DNA from: Spirochaetales bacterium | Lineage (GTDB): Bacteria > Spirochaetota > Spirochaetia > SZUA-6 > RPPD01 | Direction of reading: 5' to 3' | Length of the DNA stretch: 39,302 bases | Assembly: GCA_016929065.1 (NCBI GenBank) | Contig: JAFGJO010000015.1 | Coordinates: 1-39,302, forward strand | Part shown: positions 6,771 to 15,780 of the stretch, in pieces | Layout of the letters: the number at the start of each line of letters is the position of its first letter | How positions within the stretch are numbered: position 1 is the first letter of the stretch | Program-made: the position numbers and the translations under genes | The notes under the pieces: generated by a model | Databases searched by the model: none | What the model was told of the DNA's origin: nothing | The model's input: only the letters and a program-made list of their open reading frames with translations

Positions 6771-7388
6771 TTGAACCGACGAAGTATTATTCGGCTTTCA
6801 AAATACAAAAATACACTACAACGGCTGAAGGCCATGGGGTTTGTAAAAGTATTTTCAGACAATCTGGCAGATGCACTGGGTATACGGTCGACTCAGGTGA
6901 GGAAAGATTTCTCGCAATTTAAAATTACCGGCAACAAACGCGGCGGGTATATCATTGACGAACTGCTTGAAAAAATACTGAGAATACTGGGAAAAACCTC
7001 GATTCAGAGGGTGGTCCTGGTGGGGATCGGAAACATCGGCCGCGCATTGCTTCATTATAAAGGATTTGAAAATGAGGGCATAGAAATTGATTCTGCCTTT
7101 GATATAAATCCCGATAAGCAGACAGGCCGCGATGATATTTCCGTCTACCCAATGGAGCAGCTGGTCGGGTACATTCAAAAAGAAAAAATTGAAGTAGCGG
7201 TGATAGCGGTTCCGGATATTGCAGCACAGCGGGTATTTGACCTGCTGCTGCAGGCAGGCATCAAAGGGGTGCTCAATTTCGCACCGATACGGCTCCGCGG
7301 CCCCGAACAAATCCCCGTCACCAATGTAAATCTGGTGCTGGAAATCGAGAACCTGTTTTGTTTTGTCAATGCCAAAAAAGAGGAATGA
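6771..7388 (+). CDS. rex: Rex, NADH/NAD+-sensing repressor
   Basis: A 205-residue redox-sensing repressor. Residues 1-75 form the winged helix (LADALGIRSTQVRKDFSQF holds the recognition part). Residues 80-205 form the NAD(H)-binding Rossmann domain with GIGNIGRALL at about 85-94. Known Rex proteins bind DNA when NAD+ dominates and release it with NADH. The TTG start is chosen for its AAAGGA 7 bases upstream; the nearby ATG is out of frame. It is the first gene of the hydrogenase operon, with a Rex site on its own promoter, so it is autoregulated. The kinase gene starts 5 bases after its stop. Confidence 0.95.
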   Translation: MNRRSIIRLSKYKNTLQRLKAMGFVKVFSDNLADALGIRSTQVRKDFSQFKITGNKRGGYIIDELLEKILRILGKTSIQRVVLVGIGNIGRALLHYKGFENEGIEIDSAFDINPDKQTGRDDISVYPMEQLVGYIQKEKIEVAVIAVPDIAAQRVFDLLLQAGIKGVLNFAPIRLRGPEQIPVTNVNLVLEIENLFCFVNAKKEE

Positions 7389-7392
7389 GGCC

Positions 7393-9234
7393 ATGAAACT
7401 GCGCTCAAGGATATTCATTTCCATTTTTATCATCATTTTTGTGTTTGGCGCCGCAAGCGTCATTCTTGGGTTCACGCTGATCCAGCAGGATATTGTCAAC
7501 AGGTCCCAGGAAGAAGTCAGGCGGGATCTGGAATCGATGCGTTTGTATTACGACGGCAAGATCAATCAGCTGGAAAAATCACTTTCTCTTGTTGTGAAAA
7601 ACGGTATTGTGAATCCCGACCCGCAGATGATTGGTGCGGATTACCTTACCACCGTTTCTCGATCAGACAAGGTGGAAAGCCTTGTTGTGAACCGTGCATT
7701 TACTGGTGCACAGTCATCCGGTTCCAGTATAGTCCGTCGCGAAGAACTTCAGAGGCTTGGAAAAAGTCTTGCTGAGCGCATCAGTATTCCAATTATCGAG
7801 ACCCCAAAAGCCAGACCGACACAAAAAACGATGATAGAAGAGGCACTCGTTGTTGAGTGTGCCATGCCGGTTGAATGGGAGAATGGCCTGGTAAAAAAAG
7901 TAATCTATGCCGGCAAAATAATAAATAATGATTATAACCTCATCAGCGAAATTCACAGTTTCGTGTACGAAAACAGCATATATGGTAATAAACCAGTCGG
8001 GACCGTTACTGTTTTTCTGGATGATGTAAGAATTGCAACGAATGTGCTGGATGAAACAGGCAAAAATGCAGTGGGAACACGAGTATCTGATGTCGTGTAT
8101 AAAAAGGTTATTGAAGAAGGACAGGTATTTCAGGCACGGGCGTTTGTCGTGACGGACTGGTACCTCACTGCATATGAACCGATTGTCGATACGTCGGGAA
8201 AACGGATCGGTATTCTGTATGTCGGCCGGCTCGAAAAACCGTTTATTGACATGGTCGTCAGGTTCTTTCTAATATTTTCCGCTCTGCTTTTGTGTATGGT
8301 GGTGCTCGGCGCCTTGCTCACCTTCATCCTTGCATCGACGATCTCGCGTCCCGTCATTGAGATGAATCAGACTGCCCAGCGGATAGCACTGGGACATTAT
8401 GCCCAGCGGATTTCCGGCATTTCAAAAATACAGGAGATACATTCTCTCGCAGACACATTCAACAATATGATGCATGAGCTTGAAAACAGGGAAAACAGTC
8501 TTCATGCCAAAAGTGAAGAAATCTCTGCATTAAACAGAAGTTATCTTGATCTCATCAGTTTTGTCTCTCATGAGCTGAAGGGCATTTTGTCTTCGACAAT
8601 TTTAAATGCCTATACCGTGCGTGACGGTTTTCTGGGCATGGTCAATTTCAAGCAGAGAAAGGCGCTGGATTCAATTACCAGGAATCTTGATCACCTTGCC
8701 GAAACGGTCAAGAATTTTCTTAACCTTTCCAGGATTGAGAAAGGGGAGCTCGATATCCGGAAAGCGGTCTGCAGGCTCAACGAGGATGTATTTTCAGCGA
8801 CGCTGCAGGCATTCGAAAAGATGATCGGTGAAAGTGAAATAACCGTGACAAACGAAATACCGGACAATATCCTTCTTGAAGCAGACCGGGACATGCTGTT
8901 TGTTGTGGCAAATAATCTTGTCGGCAATGCAATCAAATACGGAAGCACTCCGGGGAGAATCATCCTGCGAAGCCGGATAGAACCTTCACGTATAGAAATT
9001 GAAGTCTATAACGACGGGGATCCATTATCCAGGGATGATACAGACAGGCTCTTTCAAAAATTCGTACGTCTCGGCCATACAAAAAAACGGCATGTCAAGG
9101 GAACCGGGCTTGGACTGTTCATAACAAAAATAATCATTGAAAGTCATGGCGGTACAATAACCTGTGTTCCAGGTGAAGCAGGCAATGCATTTATTATTTC
9201 TATACCGAGGGGTGAATATGAAGAATCCGCTTGA
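7393..9234 (+). CDS. Cache-HAMP membrane sensor histidine kinase
   Basis: A 613-residue membrane kinase. It has a TM helix at about 8-30, an extracytoplasmic sensor of about 250 residues typical of single-Cache (sCache_3) domains, a second TM at about 290-315, HAMP at about 316-370, and a dimerisation domain with H-box SHELKG (His393). The ATPase domain has NNLVGNAIKYG (507-517), a YNDGDP box (539-544) and GTGLGLFITK (570-579), so it looks catalytically complete. The start at 7393 is preferred over an in-frame ATG inside rex because it lies just past the rex stop with AGAGGA upstream. The gene lies between rex and the hydrogenase genes and overlaps the next gene by 17 bases. Its likely partner is the lone receiver at the operon end. 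The sensed ligand is unknown; small carboxylates are common for this Cache type. Confidence 0.93.
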   Translation: MKLRSRIFISIFIIIFVFGAASVILGFTLIQQDIVNRSQEEVRRDLESMRLYYDGKINQLEKSLSLVVKNGIVNPDPQMIGADYLTTVSRSDKVESLVVNRAFTGAQSSGSSIVRREELQRLGKSLAERISIPIIETPKARPTQKTMIEEALVVECAMPVEWENGLVKKVIYAGKIINNDYNLISEIHSFVYENSIYGNKPVGTVTVFLDDVRIATNVLDETGKNAVGTRVSDVVYKKVIEEGQVFQARAFVVTDWYLTAYEPIVDTSGKRIGILYVGRLEKPFIDMVVRFFLIFSALLLCMVVLGALLTFILASTISRPVIEMNQTAQRIALGHYAQRISGISKIQEIHSLADTFNNMMHELENRENSLHAKSEEISALNRSYLDLISFVSHELKGILSSTILNAYTVRDGFLGMVNFKQRKALDSITRNLDHLAETVKNFLNLSRIEKGELDIRKAVCRLNEDVFSATLQAFEKMIGESEITVTNEIPDNILLEADRDMLFVVANNLVGNAIKYGSTPGRIILRSRIEPSRIEIEVYNDGDPLSRDDTDRLFQKFVRLGHTKKRHVKGTGLGLFITKIIIESHGGTITCVPGEAGNAFIISIPRGEYEESA

Positions 9235-9574
9235 AATTATCAAGGTGAAACGGGCAGAAGCAATTAACAGAATTCTTGGCAGGGGATACTTTTCGACAAA
9301 ACGTGTGTATGTGGGCATGGCAACGTGTGAAATTGCGGCCGGATCAGCAGATGTTATGGAAATATTTCAGACAGCCATTAAAAACGGACTCGTTGATGTC
9401 TATTTGAGTCAAAAGGGGTGTGCGGGTCGCTGCAACCTTGAACCGACCGTTGAGGTTATTGAGGAAGGAAAGATTCCGGTGAAATACGGCCTTGTTGACG
9501 CCGGACGGGCTCATGAAATTATAGAACGGCATCTCAAAAAAGGGGAGGTCATCGAAGAATGGGTGATTCAGTAA
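9218..9574 (+). CDS. Thioredoxin-fold [2Fe-2S] ferredoxin-like hydrogenase accessory subunit
   Basis: A 118-residue protein resembling the thioredoxin-like [2Fe-2S] domains found alone or at the N-terminus of NuoF/HydB-type subunits. It has ATCEIAAGSADV at 35-46 and KGCAGRCNLEPTVEV at 66-80. Only three Cys (37, 68, 72) are visible where the classical fold uses four, so the cluster may have a non-Cys ligand or be absent. The ATG at 9218 has GGGGTG upstream and lies inside the kinase gene's end. It overlaps hydB by 16 bases. Genes of this size, sometimes called hydD, sit at this position in other HydABC operons; the exact role is not established. Confidence 0.8.
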   Translation: MKNPLEIIKVKRAEAINRILGRGYFSTKRVYVGMATCEIAAGSADVMEIFQTAIKNGLVDVYLSQKGCAGRCNLEPTVEVIEEGKIPVKYGLVDAGRAHEIIERHLKKGEVIEEWVIQ

Positions 9575-11397
9575 CAACAAACCAGCCAATAGAAAAACGG
9601 CCCAGAAAGCAGGTCGAATACAATATTATTCTGTGCTCCGGACCATCCTGCCTGCACAACAAAAGCAGTGAGCTCTACACGGAAATAGTGAAACAGCTGG
9701 AAGCATTCAACTGTCAGAGTAAGGTGGAGATTATACTTTCCGGCTGTCTGGGGATGTGTGCCAGGGGTCCGATTATGGTCATCAACCCCGGATATATCCT
9801 GTATGGCGATGTCGGTGTGAATGACGTCCATGATATCATCAAAGGACATATCGTCGACAAAACTCCGTTTTCCCAAAAGGTTATTCATGAGGATCATCTG
9901 TTTAACCGGTTTTACCGTGTATTCGGAGATGTCAAATTTTTTGGAAAACAGATGCGGATTGCCCTGCGGAACTGCGGCATTATCGATCCTGAAAAAATCG
10001 ATGATTATCTTTCTGTGCGCGGATATGAAGCGCTTGCCAAGGTACTCACCGATTATTCGCCTGCCGAAGTTATTCATCAGATACAGGACTCCGGACTGCG
10101 AGGCCGCGGCGGGGCGGGATTTCCCACTGGATTAAAGTGGAAATTGACCGCTGATGCCGAAGGCGAGGTGAAGTACGTCATTTGTAATGCCGATGAGGGC
10201 GATCCCGGTGCATTCATGGACCGGAGCGCTATTGAAGGCGACCCTCATTCAATTATTGAGGGGATGCTGATCGGCGGATATGCTGTCGGAGCGAAAAAGG
10301 GTTTTTTGTATATCCGTGCCGAATACCCGCTTGCAATCAAGAGGCTTGAAAAAGCCCTGACTGCCGCCAGGGAACAGAATTTTCTGGGCGACAATATACT
10401 GGGTTCAAACTATTCGTTCGATATTGAGATTCGGCTTGGTGCAGGAGCATTCGTCTGCGGCGAGGAAACAGCCCTGATTCAATCCATTGAGGGTGAGCGG
10501 GGAATGCCCAGGCCAAGGCCTCCGTATCCCTCTGTCCGCGGGCTCTTTGACAAGCCCACGCTCACCAATAACGTTGAAACATGGGCGAATATACCGGTGA
10601 TCATTCTTGACGGAGCAAAATGGTTTTCAACAATCGGAACAAAAAGCAGTAAAGGAACCAAGGTATTTGCTGTTGCAGGAAATGTGGAAAATACCGGCCT
10701 GGTGGAAGTCCCCATGGGGACAACGCTGCGGGAAATTATATTTGATATCTGCGGAGGCATTCCGGGTAACAGAAAGTTCAAGGCGCTGCAGACCGGCGGG
10801 CCTTCCGGCGGGTGTCTGACAGAGGATTCACTTGATACCCAGGTTGACTACGAATCACTCGCGAAAGCGGGATCATTTATGGGGTCGGGCGGAATGATCG
10901 TTATGGATGATACCACGTGCATGGTGAATGTGGCACGGTATTTTCTGGAATTTACCCAAAACGAATCCTGCGGAAAATGTACTCCCTGCCGCGAAGGCAC
11001 CAAGCGGATGCTTGAAATCCTTACGCGCATTACTGACGGCCGGGGGGAAGTAAAAGATATCGAAAAGCTTGAACGGCTCGGGGCGATGATCTCCAAAGCT
11101 TCACTCTGCGGACTGGGCCGTTCGGCTCCGAATCCGGTGCTCAGTACACTGAGCAAATTCAGGAATGAGTATGAAGATCACATTCTCCACAAAAAATGCA
11201 CAACAGGCAGCTGTCAGGCAATGCTTACGTACTCGATAAATGACCAATGTATCGGGTGCGGCGCCTGTATCAGGGTGTGTCCGGTCAATGCGATCAAGGG
11301 GATAAAAAGAAATCCGCATACAATTGACAGTGAACTCTGTATCAAATGCGGAGAGTGTATGAAAGTCTGCAAATTCAGGGCGATAGACCGGGTGTAA
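9559..11397 (+). CDS. hydB: HydB, NAD(P)H-binding flavin subunit of electron-bifurcating [FeFe] hydrogenase
   Basis: A 612-residue NuoF-type subunit. An N-terminal thioredoxin-fold [2Fe-2S] domain has Cys26, Cys31, Cys63, Cys67. The FMN/NAD(H) core has GLRGRGGAGFPTGLKWK at 179-195, CNADEGDPGAF, GAGAFVCGEETALIQSIEG and SVRGLFDKPTLTNNVET. A [4Fe-4S] site is SCGKCTPCREGT plus the Cys of SLCGLG. The C-terminal 2x[4Fe-4S] ferredoxin has CIGCGACIRVCP and CIKCGECMKVCK. This arrangement is that of HydB in trimeric bifurcating hydrogenases, where it exchanges electrons with NAD(H) and ferredoxin. It sits just upstream of hydA (22 bases). Confidence 0.96.
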   Translation: MGDSVTTNQPIEKRPRKQVEYNIILCSGPSCLHNKSSELYTEIVKQLEAFNCQSKVEIILSGCLGMCARGPIMVINPGYILYGDVGVNDVHDIIKGHIVDKTPFSQKVIHEDHLFNRFYRVFGDVKFFGKQMRIALRNCGIIDPEKIDDYLSVRGYEALAKVLTDYSPAEVIHQIQDSGLRGRGGAGFPTGLKWKLTADAEGEVKYVICNADEGDPGAFMDRSAIEGDPHSIIEGMLIGGYAVGAKKGFLYIRAEYPLAIKRLEKALTAAREQNFLGDNILGSNYSFDIEIRLGAGAFVCGEETALIQSIEGERGMPRPRPPYPSVRGLFDKPTLTNNVETWANIPVIILDGAKWFSTIGTKSSKGTKVFAVAGNVENTGLVEVPMGTTLREIIFDICGGIPGNRKFKALQTGGPSGGCLTEDSLDTQVDYESLAKAGSFMGSGGMIVMDDTTCMVNVARYFLEFTQNESCGKCTPCREGTKRMLEILTRITDGRGEVKDIEKLERLGAMISKASLCGLGRSAPNPVLSTLSKFRNEYEDHILHKKCTTGSCQAMLTYSINDQCIGCGACIRVCPVNAIKGIKRNPHTIDSELCIKCGECMKVCKFRAIDRV

Positions 11398-11418: not shown

Positions 11419-13194
11419 ATGGCGAAAGATTCAATTGTTACAATCTATATAAACGAAAAAGAATACAAGGTAAAAGAAGGCCAGACCATTATGCAGGCTG
11501 CGGATTCGCACGGTTTTAAAATACCGCGGCTCTGCTATCATCCGAAACTATCAATCGAAGGTGCATGCCGTGTCTGTATCGTTGAAGTTGAGGGGATGAA
11601 AACCTATGCAGCCTCGTGCGCATGTCCGGTTGCCGAAGGGATGCGTATTCATACAAATACCAAAGAGCTGCGCAGGGCACGACGCGATATTGTGGAACTG
11701 ATCCTGGACAATCACCCGAAAGACTGTCATACCTGTGAACGCGACGGGAACTGTGAATTGCAGCGGCTTGCCTATGCCATGGGCATCCGTCACCGTCATT
11801 TTGAAGGGGAGCGCAAGCACTATGAAAAGGACCTGTCCTCGGAATCGGTTATCCGTGACCCGGACAAGTGTATTCTCTGCGGCAGATGCGTCCGGATATG
11901 TTCTGAAGTACAGAAGGTGAACGCCCTCGGGTATGCTCACCGGGGATTCAAAACAGTCGTCATGCCCGCGTTTAACGCCCCGTTTTCTGAAAGTGTCTGC
12001 TCCAATTGCGGACAATGCATCAACGTTTGTCCCACTGCCTCTTTTGTGGAGAAAAATTATACTCAGGAATTATTTGAAAAACTTGATAATCCCGATATCA
12101 TCAAAATTGCCCAGATTGCCCCATCAGTCCGCGCTGCGATTGGTGAAGCCTTCGGTTTGCCGCCCGGCCGGGCAATGCACGGTGAACTTGCGGCATCGCT
12201 GCGCAAGCTGGGATTTGATTATGTTTTCGACACACAATTTTCAGCAGATCTCACTATTATGGAAGAGGCCAGCGAGTTTCTTGAACGGCTGCAGGGAAAC
12301 GGCCCATTGCCGATGATTACCAGCTGTTCCAGCGCCTGGATGAAGTATGTGGAACATTTTCATCCTGATTTTCTTCCGAATATTTCAACATGCAAATCAC
12401 CGATGGCAATGATGGGTGCGCTGACCAAGACGTATTTTCCCGGGAAAATAAAGAAAAAGCCGGAGGAAATATTCTCGGTGGCGATCATGTGCTGTACTGC
12501 CAAAAAATATGAAGCTGCCCGGCCCGAGCTCATGGTCGATGGAATCCGCAGCGTCGATCTGGTTGTCACGACCCGCGAGATTGCCTGGATGATTAAATCG
12601 GCGGGGATCGATCTGGTCAATATCAAACCGCAGGATTTTGACGCCCCTCTGGGCATTTCCTCGGGTGCCGGAGCTATTTTCGGTGCAACAGGCGGTGTTA
12701 TGGAAGCGGCAATCAGGACCGCATATGAACTGTACACAGGTGAAACCCTCCTTGATATTGAACTGGCGTCTCTGCGCGGCTTTCATGGAATCAAGGAAGC
12801 GGAAATAGTAATTGACGGAAAACCGATACGCGTTGCAGTAGCGCACGGGCTCGGAAATGCACAGGAATTACTTGCCATCGCCAAAAAAGATCCAAAGCGG
12901 TATCACTTTATCGAGGTGATGGGGTGTCCCGGCGGATGTATCGGTGGAGGCGGCCAGCCGTATGCAACTGCAAATAGCATTCCACTTGACGAGGAGTGTC
13001 TGGCAAAACGGGCAGAAGCCTTGTATGCGATTGACCGGGAAAAGACAATCCGGCGCAGTCACGACAATCCCGACATCCAGCGGCTCTACAGGGAATATCT
13101 GGGACGGCCGTTAGGCCAATTGTCCCACAAATTGCTGCACACACACTATGGGGCGAAACTGCCGCGGGGTATTATTGTCGGCGGAGGAGAATAA
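11419..13194 (+). CDS. hydA: HydA, catalytic [FeFe] hydrogenase subunit with altered H-cluster motif
   Basis: A 591-residue catalytic subunit. It has an N-terminal [2Fe-2S] domain (Cys39, 50, 53, 67), a His-Cys3 [4Fe-4S] (His99, Cys103, 106, 112), a 2x[4Fe-4S] ferredoxin (Cys151, 154, 157, 161 and 194, 197, 200, 204), and the H-cluster domain. The H-cluster motifs are L1 TSCSSAW (302-308 region, canonical TSCCPxW), L2 MCCTAKKYE (canonical MPCxxKKxE) and L3 VMGCPGGCIGGGGQP. Using the CpI ligands Cys300, 355, 499 and 503, the same spacings here give Ser304, Cys359, Cys503 and Cys507, so one cluster ligand appears to be Ser, with an extra Cys358 beside Cys359. The conserved proton-relay Cys is present (Cys303). 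In the HydABC context it should make or oxidise H2. No maturase genes are in the window. AGAGGAG precedes the ATG. Confidence 0.96.
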   Translation: MAKDSIVTIYINEKEYKVKEGQTIMQAADSHGFKIPRLCYHPKLSIEGACRVCIVEVEGMKTYAASCACPVAEGMRIHTNTKELRRARRDIVELILDNHPKDCHTCERDGNCELQRLAYAMGIRHRHFEGERKHYEKDLSSESVIRDPDKCILCGRCVRICSEVQKVNALGYAHRGFKTVVMPAFNAPFSESVCSNCGQCINVCPTASFVEKNYTQELFEKLDNPDIIKIAQIAPSVRAAIGEAFGLPPGRAMHGELAASLRKLGFDYVFDTQFSADLTIMEEASEFLERLQGNGPLPMITSCSSAWMKYVEHFHPDFLPNISTCKSPMAMMGALTKTYFPGKIKKKPEEIFSVAIMCCTAKKYEAARPELMVDGIRSVDLVVTTREIAWMIKSAGIDLVNIKPQDFDAPLGISSGAGAIFGATGGVMEAAIRTAYELYTGETLLDIELASLRGFHGIKEAEIVIDGKPIRVAVAHGLGNAQELLAIAKKDPKRYHFIEVMGCPGGCIGGGGQPYATANSIPLDEECLAKRAEALYAIDREKTIRRSHDNPDIQRLYREYLGRPLGQLSHKLLHTHYGAKLPRGIIVGGGE

Positions 13195-13686
13195 ATGAAG
13201 ACGAAACAAGATGAAAAGATGAACCTGCTGGAAGAGTACATGCAGGAAATGAAGAAGCAGCCGTATGCAGAATCACAGCTGATCGGCATTCTCCACAAGG
13301 CACAGGAATTATACGGCTATCTTCCCGAAGACGTCATGGAAGCAATAGCGTATGGCATGAATATTCCCGCCGCACGAATATGGGGTGTCGCAAGTTTTTA
13401 TCATTATTTTAACCTTGAACCGGTTGGGAAATATACTTTGTCGCTCTGCCTTGGAACCGCCTGCTATGTAAAAGGAGCCGGGAAAATTCTTGATCGCATG
13501 CGGGAATACCTGAATGTCGATGTGGGACAGACAACAGAAGACCGTTTATTCACCCTGCAGGAGGCCCGCTGTCTGGGCGCCTGCGGACTTGCTCCGGTCC
13601 TGATGGTCAATGACAGAATTTATGGAAAACTCACCCCGGACAGTACAATTGAACTGCTTGATAAGCTGAAAAAGGATGCAAAATAA
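13195..13686 (+). CDS. hydC: HydC, NuoE-like [2Fe-2S] subunit
   Basis: A 163-residue NuoE-type subunit with the four cluster ligands Cys85, Cys90, Cys126 and Cys130 (CLGTAC, CLGACG). It starts directly after the hydA stop (TAAATG), so translation is coupled. In trimeric HydABC enzymes this subunit links the flavin subunit's iron-sulfur chain. Gene order here is hydB-hydA-hydC, rather than the hydC-hydB-hydA order common in Clostridia and Thermotogae. A 57-base gap follows, with an AAGGAGG for the next gene. Confidence 0.95.
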   Translation: MKTKQDEKMNLLEEYMQEMKKQPYAESQLIGILHKAQELYGYLPEDVMEAIAYGMNIPAARIWGVASFYHYFNLEPVGKYTLSLCLGTACYVKGAGKILDRMREYLNVDVGQTTEDRLFTLQEARCLGACGLAPVLMVNDRIYGKLTPDSTIELLDKLKKDAK

Positions 13687-13743: not shown

Positions 13744-14127
13744 GTGCCAAAAAAAATACTAATTATCGATGATGACAATGATTTTGCAGAGGCGGTCAAA
13801 GTGCTTCTGGAATCCAATGGATACAGTGTCGACTATTCAGAAACGAGCGAAGAAGGGCTGCAAAAAGCGTGCGGCGAAAACGCACCGGACTGCATACTGC
13901 TTGATGTGATGATGACAAGCAAGACAGAAGGAATTGAGTTTTCCCGGACACTCCGGGATTCAGAAGCAACTGCGCAGATTCCCGTGATTCTTGTCACCGG
14001 GATTCGCCGGGACCTGAATGTACCCTATTCACTCGAGCCGGACGGTGATTTTCTGCCCGTAAAAGCAGTTATCGAAAAACCCATCCGTCCTGAAGCACTG
14101 TTAACGGCGATCCAGGATAATCTTTAA
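13744..14127 (+). CDS. Stand-alone receiver (CheY-like) response regulator
   Basis: A 127-residue protein consisting only of a receiver domain. It has the acidic pair Asp9/Asp10, the phosphorylatable Asp54 (LLDVMM), Thr85 (VTGI) and Lys112 (EKP), so all key residues are present. There is no DNA-binding or enzymatic output domain. AAGGAGG precedes a GTG start. As the last gene of the rex-kinase-hydrogenase operon it is the obvious partner of the Cache-HAMP kinase, but its target is unknown; it could act by protein-protein contact, perhaps on the hydrogenase or on a chemotaxis-like machine. The 152 bases between this gene and the next promoter hold no clear gene or terminator. Confidence 0.9.
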   Translation: MPKKILIIDDDNDFAEAVKVLLESNGYSVDYSETSEEGLQKACGENAPDCILLDVMMTSKTEGIEFSRTLRDSEATAQIPVILVTGIRRDLNVPYSLEPDGDFLPVKAVIEKPIRPEALLTAIQDNL

Positions 14128-14313: not shown

Positions 14314-14586
14314 ATGTTTGTTTCGGTATGCACAGATCTGGCCAATGCTGACCATGAAGAAGCTGTTTCCTCACTTTTAATTCAATACGGATTTGTACGG
14401 GTGCAAAAAAACCTGTATGAACACACCGGGTTAAACGAAACAGCGCTCAAGCGGCTGAAATATGATATGGACAAAAATACCGACTCGTATGATGTGATGC
14501 GGATTTATCAGTATCCCTTTGAGGGGACATTGGTTATTACCGCATTAAAGGGAAAAAAATGGCGGAAGCTGGTCGCGAGAGCATGA
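14314..14586 (+). CDS. Orphan Cas2-like protein
   Basis: A 90-residue ferredoxin-fold protein resembling Cas2. The first strand, MFVSVCTDL, ends in the Asp (residue 8) typical of Cas2, followed by a helix, then YGFVRVQKNLYEH (25-37), which matches the Cas2 'RVQ-S-FE' strand, then NETALKRLKYDM and a strand MRIYQYP. No cas1, other cas gene or CRISPR repeat is in the window. Known relatives of Cas2 include the VapD-type RNases, so the protein could be a nuclease-fold protein in an unrelated role. It lies between the hydrogenase operon and prfB and appears to be leaderless. Confidence 0.75.
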   Translation: MFVSVCTDLANADHEEAVSSLLIQYGFVRVQKNLYEHTGLNETALKRLKYDMDKNTDSYDVMRIYQYPFEGTLVITALKGKKWRKLVARA

Positions 14587-14678: not shown

Positions 14679-15780
14679 ATGTTTGAAGATATCCAGCAGA
14701 GGATAGTGCAGCTCGATAAATCAATCCAGGAAACCTGGAGGCGTCTTTGACCCGGAACATCTGAAAACGGGCATCGCGGCACTTGAAACAGAATCCCAAA
14801 AAGAAAATATCTGGCAGGATCGGGAGCATGCAGAGAAGATCCTTTCAAAACTGAAAAGTCAGAAGAAGAGGCTCGAAAGCTGGGAAAAACTTATTGCTGA
14901 TTTTTCGGATTTTCAGGAAATGCAGCAGCTTGTGCAGGAAGAAAAAGATTCTTCGGTCGAAGAAGAAATCAGGAATTCTTTTCTGAGCCTGGAAGAACGG
15001 TTTGAACAAATACAGATCATTGAATTCCTGAGCCAGAAATATGATGAGGCAGCGGCATTTCTTACCATTCATTCCGGCGCCGGCGGAACGGAGGCGTGTG
15101 ACTGGGTGAGCATGCTTATGCGAATGTATCTGCGCTGGGCGGAAATTCATGAATACAAAGTTACCACCATCGACCTGCTCGAAGCGGAAGGCGGGGTGAA
15201 ATCGGTAACACTTGAAATTACCGGTGATTATGCTTTCGGCTTTCTGAAAGCGGAAACCGGAATCCACCGGCTTGTGCGTATTTCCCCGTTTGACAGCAAC
15301 CAGCGAAGGCACACGTCATTTGCCTCGGTCTTTGCTTCACCGGTGATTGACGATGATATTGAAATAGAGATAAAACCCGATGAACTGCGAATCGATACTT
15401 ATCGCGCCGGAGGGGCCGGCGGCCAGCATGTCAACAAGACCGATTCCGCTGTGCGGATTACACATCTGCCCACCGGGATTGTTGTCCAGTGTCAGAATGA
15501 GCGCAGTCAGTTCAAGAACAAATCTACCGCAATGAAAGTGCTGAAATCCCGCCTGTATGAACATGTGAAAAAAGAGCAGGATGCTGAAAAACTGAAACAG
15601 GAAAAGGCCAAGAAGGATATTTCATGGGGTAACCAAATTCGGTCTTATGTGTTTCATCCGTATAATATGGTTAAAGACCACAGGACAAAATACGAAACAG
15701 GAAATACGCAGGCTGTGATGGATGGAAAAATAGATGGGTTTATAGAAGAATACCTGAAATTTACATGGACCGGTGAATAA
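14679..15780 (+). CDS. prfB: Peptide chain release factor 2, with programmed +1 frameshift
   Basis: RF2 ends translation at UGA and UAA. The start is the ATG at 14679 with TAGGAG upstream. The first frame runs 23 codons to CTT TGA at 14745-14750, then continues in the +1 frame (from GAC at 14749) to 15780, giving 366 residues. The second frame carries the RF2 tripeptide SPF (RISPFDSNQRR), the catalytic GGQ (AGGAGGQHVNKTDSAVRI) and a normal C-terminus. The frameshift depends on RF2 scarcity, so it forms an autoregulatory loop. The preceding gene is the cas2-like protein, with 92 bases between that hold two short A/T-rich inverted repeats and nothing else clear. Confidence 0.97.
14736..14751 (+). 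promoter_or_regulatory. prfB programmed frameshift site
   Basis: The sequence TGGAGGCGTCTTTGAC contains an internal Shine-Dalgarno-like GGAGG placed 3 bases before the slippery CTT, then the in-frame TGA stop and a C. This is the classical prfB arrangement (Shine-Dalgarno, CUU UGA C). Confidence 0.95.

Follow-up and report, generated by a model that had tools for sequence, protein, structure and literature searches.

The textbook H-cluster of [FeFe]-hydrogenases carries four cysteines on its cubane, and serine ligation of a catalytic [4Fe-4S] cluster is rare in known enzymes. The monomeric, ferredoxin-linked enzyme CpI of Clostridium pasteurianum belongs to this four-cysteine type and has Ala at position 321 and Pro at position 354 (CpI numbering). 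The bifurcating HydABC of Thermoanaerobacter kivui has a HydA1 (8a6t) in the same, fully canonical state, with TSCCPSW, Ala321 and MPC. In HydA1 of Acetobacterium woodii (PDB 7q4v/7q4w/8a5e), which belongs to an isolated and characterised enzyme (PMC6288185), the motifs are TSCSPGW and MPC, with Ser at CpI 300 and Cys at CpI 321. The same Cys-to-Ser change at CpI 300 is reported in HydA from Great Salt Lake, for which Ser ligation was suggested (PMC4284687), from Melainabacteria (PMC3787301) and from Hydrogenedentota, in which it prevails in four of the five sub-types (PMC11406978). Lastly, hydrogenase III of C. pasteurianum (group B, TSCCCP) has an extra Cys beside the H-cluster motif residues, which lies in L1 and leaves all four ligands in place (PMC12138974).

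The window analysed here, a stretch of 39,302 nucleotides from a Spirochaetales bacterium, harbors a run of genes in which hydB, hydA and hydC are intact and which is organized in the following order:

6771..7388, forward strand: Rex redox-sensing repressor (NF003996, 227.6 bits against a cut-off of 138)
7363..9234, forward strand: Cache-HAMP sensor histidine kinase of the operon (from its domains; syntenic in relatives)
9164..9574, forward strand: gene for a small thioredoxin-like [2Fe-2S] ferredoxin upstream of hydB, start codon uncertain (weak NCBIfam matches; conserved in the operon of relatives)
9559..11397, forward strand: hydB, FMN/NADH subunit with two C-terminal Fer4 motifs (Complex1_51K, SLBB, NADH_4Fe-4S, Fer4)
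11419..13194, forward strand: hydA, 591 amino acids, catalytic subunit of a group A6/A3 [FeFe]-hydrogenase (from NF040763, Pfam domains and PDB matches)
13195..13686, forward strand: hydC, NuoE-like [2Fe-2S] subunit (PF01257, 1.3e-50)
13744..14127, forward strand: response-regulator receiver gene (syntenic in relatives)

Further downstream, inspection by eye revealed an ORF resembling the Cas2 type (14314-14586, 90 amino acids), around which no further CRISPR gene was noticed, and a release factor 2-like ORF (14920-15780) whose late start is as expected from the usual programmed frameshift of prfB. A flagellin-like gene is also present in the window.

HydA scored 834.2 bits against NF040763, the NCBIfam model for NADH-dependent [FeFe] hydrogenases of group A6 (cut-off 765). 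Its Pfam modules (Fe_hyd_lg_C, Fe_hyd_SSU, Fer2, NADH-G_4Fe-4S_3 and Fer4) are arranged in a complete order, that is, N-terminal [2Fe-2S], His/Cys [4Fe-4S], 2[4Fe-4S] and H-domain with SSU, and its best PDB matches are the bifurcating HydABC structures 8a6t and 7q4v, T. kivui HydA1 giving the best score over the whole protein. The best PDB match of HydB, in turn, is A. woodii HydB (7q4v_B), with which it has the segments GDPGAFMDRS and GGPSG in common; at those places bifurcating enzymes have Ala or Glu, Met, and GGPSG (PMC7311640). Judged from its sequence, HydA is the catalytic subunit of a group A6/A3 [FeFe]-hydrogenase of the trimeric, electron-bifurcating type that works with NADH and ferredoxin. 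With CpI it shares the H-domain fold, the relay Cys, three of the four cubane ligands and the N-terminal clusters, and with A. woodii HydA1 the Ser at CpI 300, the Cys at CpI 321 and the same modules. The residues of interest are located as follows:

12319..12339, forward strand: L1 motif T301-S302-C303-S304-S305-A306-W307 (TSCSSAW), from the translation, aligned to TSCCPGW of CpI
12328..12330, forward strand: codon tcc of Ser304, aligned to the cubane-ligand position Cys300 of CpI
12391..12393, forward strand: Cys325 (in STCKSP), a non-canonical Cys aligned to CpI Ala321
12490..12495, forward strand: L2 motif, M357 C358 C359 T360 (MCCTAKK), with C358 (tgc) at 12490-12492 and C359 (tgt) at 12493-12495
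12925..12939, forward strand: L3 motif (EVMGC503PGGC507) with the ligands Cys503 (12925-12927) and Cys507 (12937-12939), aligned to CpI 499 and 503

The preliminary description had read TSCSSAW where TSCCPxW is expected, and had placed Ser304, Cys359, Cys503 and Cys507 by spacing at CpI 300, 355, 499 and 503. When HydA is aligned by Phmmer with CpI and with the HydA1 proteins of T. kivui and A. woodii, no gap falls between L1 and L2, and the offset to CpI at these four positions is a constant +4, so that the missing Cys is confirmed. The same alignment bears out the retention of the proton-relay Cys303 (CpI Cys299), together with conserved Glu and Ser positions of the proton path, and the presence of an extra Cys358, at the place of CpI Pro354, directly before the L2 ligand Cys359 (CpI Cys355), where MPC has its Pro. 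A shift of register that would have put a Cys at position 300 was seen against none of the three references, and the gap-free alignment rules it out. HydA thus falls outside the canonical four-Cys class (TSCCPxW) by its Ser304, and fits the subset of bifurcating HydA with Ser in L1, as in A. woodii, with all else conserved; the motifs of the two differ, TSCSPGW with MPC in A. woodii corresponding to TSCSSAW with MCC in the window. The supernumerary Cys of L1 that marks group B (CpIII-like, TSCCCP) is absent from HydA, whose extra Cys sits in L2. The AlphaFold model (H-domain pLDDT mostly 80-94; structural matches 8a6t, 7q4w and CpI) is silent on the cubane ligand, since it holds no cofactor.

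How common is a Ser at this position? In a first set of 84 sequences (relatives from the genome scan, the window HydA and three references) it was present in 79. In the second, non-redundant set, to which spirochaete loci were added and from which near-duplicates were removed, position 300 is occupied by Ser in 86 and by Cys in 33 of the 119 proteins, and by nothing else, with at least seven interconversions between the two on a tree for which the trait columns had been removed from the alignment. C299, S319, M353, C355, K358, F417, M497, C499 and C503 (CpI numbering) are invariant in all 119 or nearly so, the two L3 ligands Cys499 and Cys503 in all of them. Ser304 is therefore a known and widespread natural variant of NADH/ferredoxin hydrogenases, already present in the three papers cited above. 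The preliminary description, which mentioned Ser-containing L1 variants in some NADP-linked hydrogenases, was right in that such variants do occur in NAD(P)-linked enzymes. Its emphasis on Ser304 as unusual was misplaced: Ser300 is widespread in this family, its active members included, which the description had itself named as a finding that would speak against it; 86 of 119 relatives and an isolated, characterised enzyme, that of A. woodii (HydA1, TSCSPGW), carry it. The description had also overlooked that Ser is the majority state at 300, as well as a second non-canonical Cys, C325; its interpretation is, on the whole, partly supported. The family of the window genome includes a second HydA (L085/L148, G002:C67), with SSCSPGW, Ala321 and Pro354, in which Ser300 occurs although none of the positions 306, 307, 321 and 354 has an extra Cys.

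Cys354, corresponding to C358 of the window, requires only two changes on the tree and marks one clade, comprising Omnitrophota, Planctomycetes, Elusimicrobia and others. With few exceptions it comes with TSCSS: MCC is paired with TSCSS or TSCSA in the main clade, and still with TSCCP in two branches outside it (L032 and L034). One locus nested within the TSCSS/MCC clade and sharing its operon order (L027:3974-5773) reads TSCCPGW, STSKSP (Ser321) and MPC, the four sites 300, 301, 321 and 354 having reverted together, either by true co-evolution or by gene conversion. We found no description of the TSCSS/MCC (Pro301Ser/Pro354Cys) pairing in a literature search that was not exhaustive, and the available parts of PMC4284687, PMC3787301 and PMC11406978 make no mention of the Pro354Cys/Pro301Ser pair. 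This clade-level pairing and the orphan status of the window HydA, that is, the lack of maturases discussed below, are the newer parts of our findings. The window operon has the same gene order as the loci of this clade minus the maturases. In 25 of 33 Cys354-clade loci hydG, hydF or both are encoded close to hydA, in many cases as its immediate downstream neighbour; hydG follows either hydA itself (Planctomycetes) or hydC, often then with hydF (Omnitrophota) (L002-L036). Most of the relatives' genomes encode both HydG and HydF at full length, the latter in a canonical or a divergent form; together with hydG and hydF standing beside hydA, this supports the view that the proteins with Ser300 and Cys354 are genuine H-cluster enzymes. 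The divergent full-length HydF proteins score about 280-310 bits, just under the curated cut-off of 325.55 (G399, G403, G404, G407, G409, G410, G412, G416, G418, G429 and G444).

As to the residue that holds the iron bound by Cys300 in CpI, we lean, by a little, toward a bifurcating HydA of the Ser-L1 clade in which the oxygen of Ser304 would ligate this iron, the [4Fe-4S]H cluster being tuned and not disabled. Ser is favoured as the ligand, and is probably a working fourth one, because position 300 is confined to Cys and Ser, even with other cysteines often close by, and because the remaining active-site residues are invariant or nearly so. A takeover by another Cys should have let position 300 drift to residues such as Ala, Gly or Thr, and none of these appears in the 119 sequences, where Ser300 never gives way to any residue other than Cys. 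A ligand swap, in which Cys325 (CpI 321) or Cys358 (CpI 354) would bind the iron and Ser304 would be a mere spacer, ranks second and seems unlikely to us, even though the distribution of cysteines speaks for it in part. Indeed, Cys321 occurs in 77 of 86 Ser300 proteins versus five of 33 with Cys300 (Fisher p 1.3e-14, uncorrected for descent), Cys354 is retained in those members of the clade that have Ala321, and L027, where Cys300 has been regained, has no Cys at either site. On the tree, however, the association of Ser300 with Cys321 reduces to only three well-supported independent pairs, too few to bear it out, of which on average 2.4 run in the expected direction. Moreover, CrHydA1 and DdHydAB combine TSCC with S[ST]CKSP, thus having Cys321 beside a full ligand set (Cys179/234/378/382 in DdHydAB; PMC13321311); Cys321 also accompanies Cys300 in L110, L112, L116 and L121, as does Cys354 in L032 and L034, whereas L057, L068, L076 and L085 have Ser300 with neither. 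The idea, first drawn from the alignment with A. woodii, that Cys321 is a proven relocated ligand was rejected as such, since CrHydA1 and DdHydAB have both cysteines and Cys321 is missing from several proteins with Ser300. Of the Ser300 proteins, 85 of 86 have an extra Cys at 306, 307, 321 or 354 (in one, only at 362, counted separately), versus eight of 33 Cys300 proteins; this enrichment counts against Ser ligation, since nearby cysteines may compensate. As to an error of sequencing or assembly, a pseudogene or a mis-set register, tcc (Ser) and tgc (Cys) are a single base apart, but the frame of 591 codons is open, the operon is intact, the alignment is gap-free and identical residues recur in dozens of independent genomes; we regard such an artefact as practically negligible, a read error being rejected since the Ser is common to nearly all close relatives.

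Returning to ligation by Ser304, Cys325 and Cys358 may represent packing or secondary-sphere changes that accompany it, and not ligands. The chemistry on H2 would proceed as in CpI, with Cys507 as the bridging residue and Cys303 relaying protons to the Glu/Ser path, and electrons would pass through the clusters of HydA to HydB (FMN, NAD) and ferredoxin.

The activity of HydA in this organism is only putative, because no HydE, HydF or HydG scored over its cut-off in the window genome (69 contigs, 95.8% complete) in a profile search in which all candidates were scored; the same holds for G002, a genome of the same family. The only HydG-like match in the window genome, of 225 bits, was set aside as ThiH, since it adjoins thiG and a thiF-like gene in a thi operon. 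Maturases were also searched for in HydA-positive Spirochaetota genomes selected for having no HydF match: HydG was absent from 71 of 73 (three positive controls had it), HydF, under full scoring, from all 26 and HydE over its cut-off from all 18 of the genomes tested for each. Several maturase-less genomes are single contigs, some 98-100% complete, and most of the HydA proteins read from such genomes have all canonical motifs. Intact group A HydA without recognisable HydG was observed in about 70 Spirochaetota genomes, for instance L181 (G132), L182 (G328), L183 (G389) and L184 (G360). The absence of maturases in Spirochaetota thus appears real, within the reach of profiles that would miss maturation proteins of remote or separate ancestry, and appears independent of the Ser. 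The loss is not tied to the latter, because genomes with Cys300 HydA lack the maturases too and hydG or hydF is usually a neighbour of hydA in the relatives with Ser300; a loss as a consequence of the Ser variant was rejected, canonical HydA in complete spirochaete genomes being equally without them.

These absences, together with a sole HydG-like match that is ThiH and a single PF02906 gene in the window genome, would fit the possibility that no complete H-cluster is formed here, HydABC being, if it works, an electron-transfer complex with the cubane only, or being matured by something unrecognised. We consider this reading doubtful. The assembly is in 69 contigs at 95.8% completeness, and the conservation of every catalytic and proton-path residue speaks for selection on H2 chemistry; moreover, maturases are also absent from other spirochaetes whose HydA is fully canonical, so that their absence is no sign of the Ser variant being inactive. 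A broader reading would join the two issues: in this spirochaete lineage a HydA with a Ser cubane ligand would either be matured without HydE, HydF and HydG (by another route, or with cofactor or precursor from neighbours) or run with the [2Fe] subcluster missing. In addition, positions 300, 301, 321 and 354 would form a co-evolving block switching the cubane between two ligation states. Taken as a whole, such a combination is rather improbable.

With three Cys and one Ser in most of the bifurcating HydA proteins of our sample, a catalytic [4Fe-4S] cluster ligated by Ser is potentially common. The repeated switches between Cys and Ser represent a natural experiment on the setting of the cubane potential. 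Finally, the existence of intact HydA in complete genomes without HydE, HydF and HydG challenges either the universal need for these maturases or the annotation of such proteins as hydrogenases.
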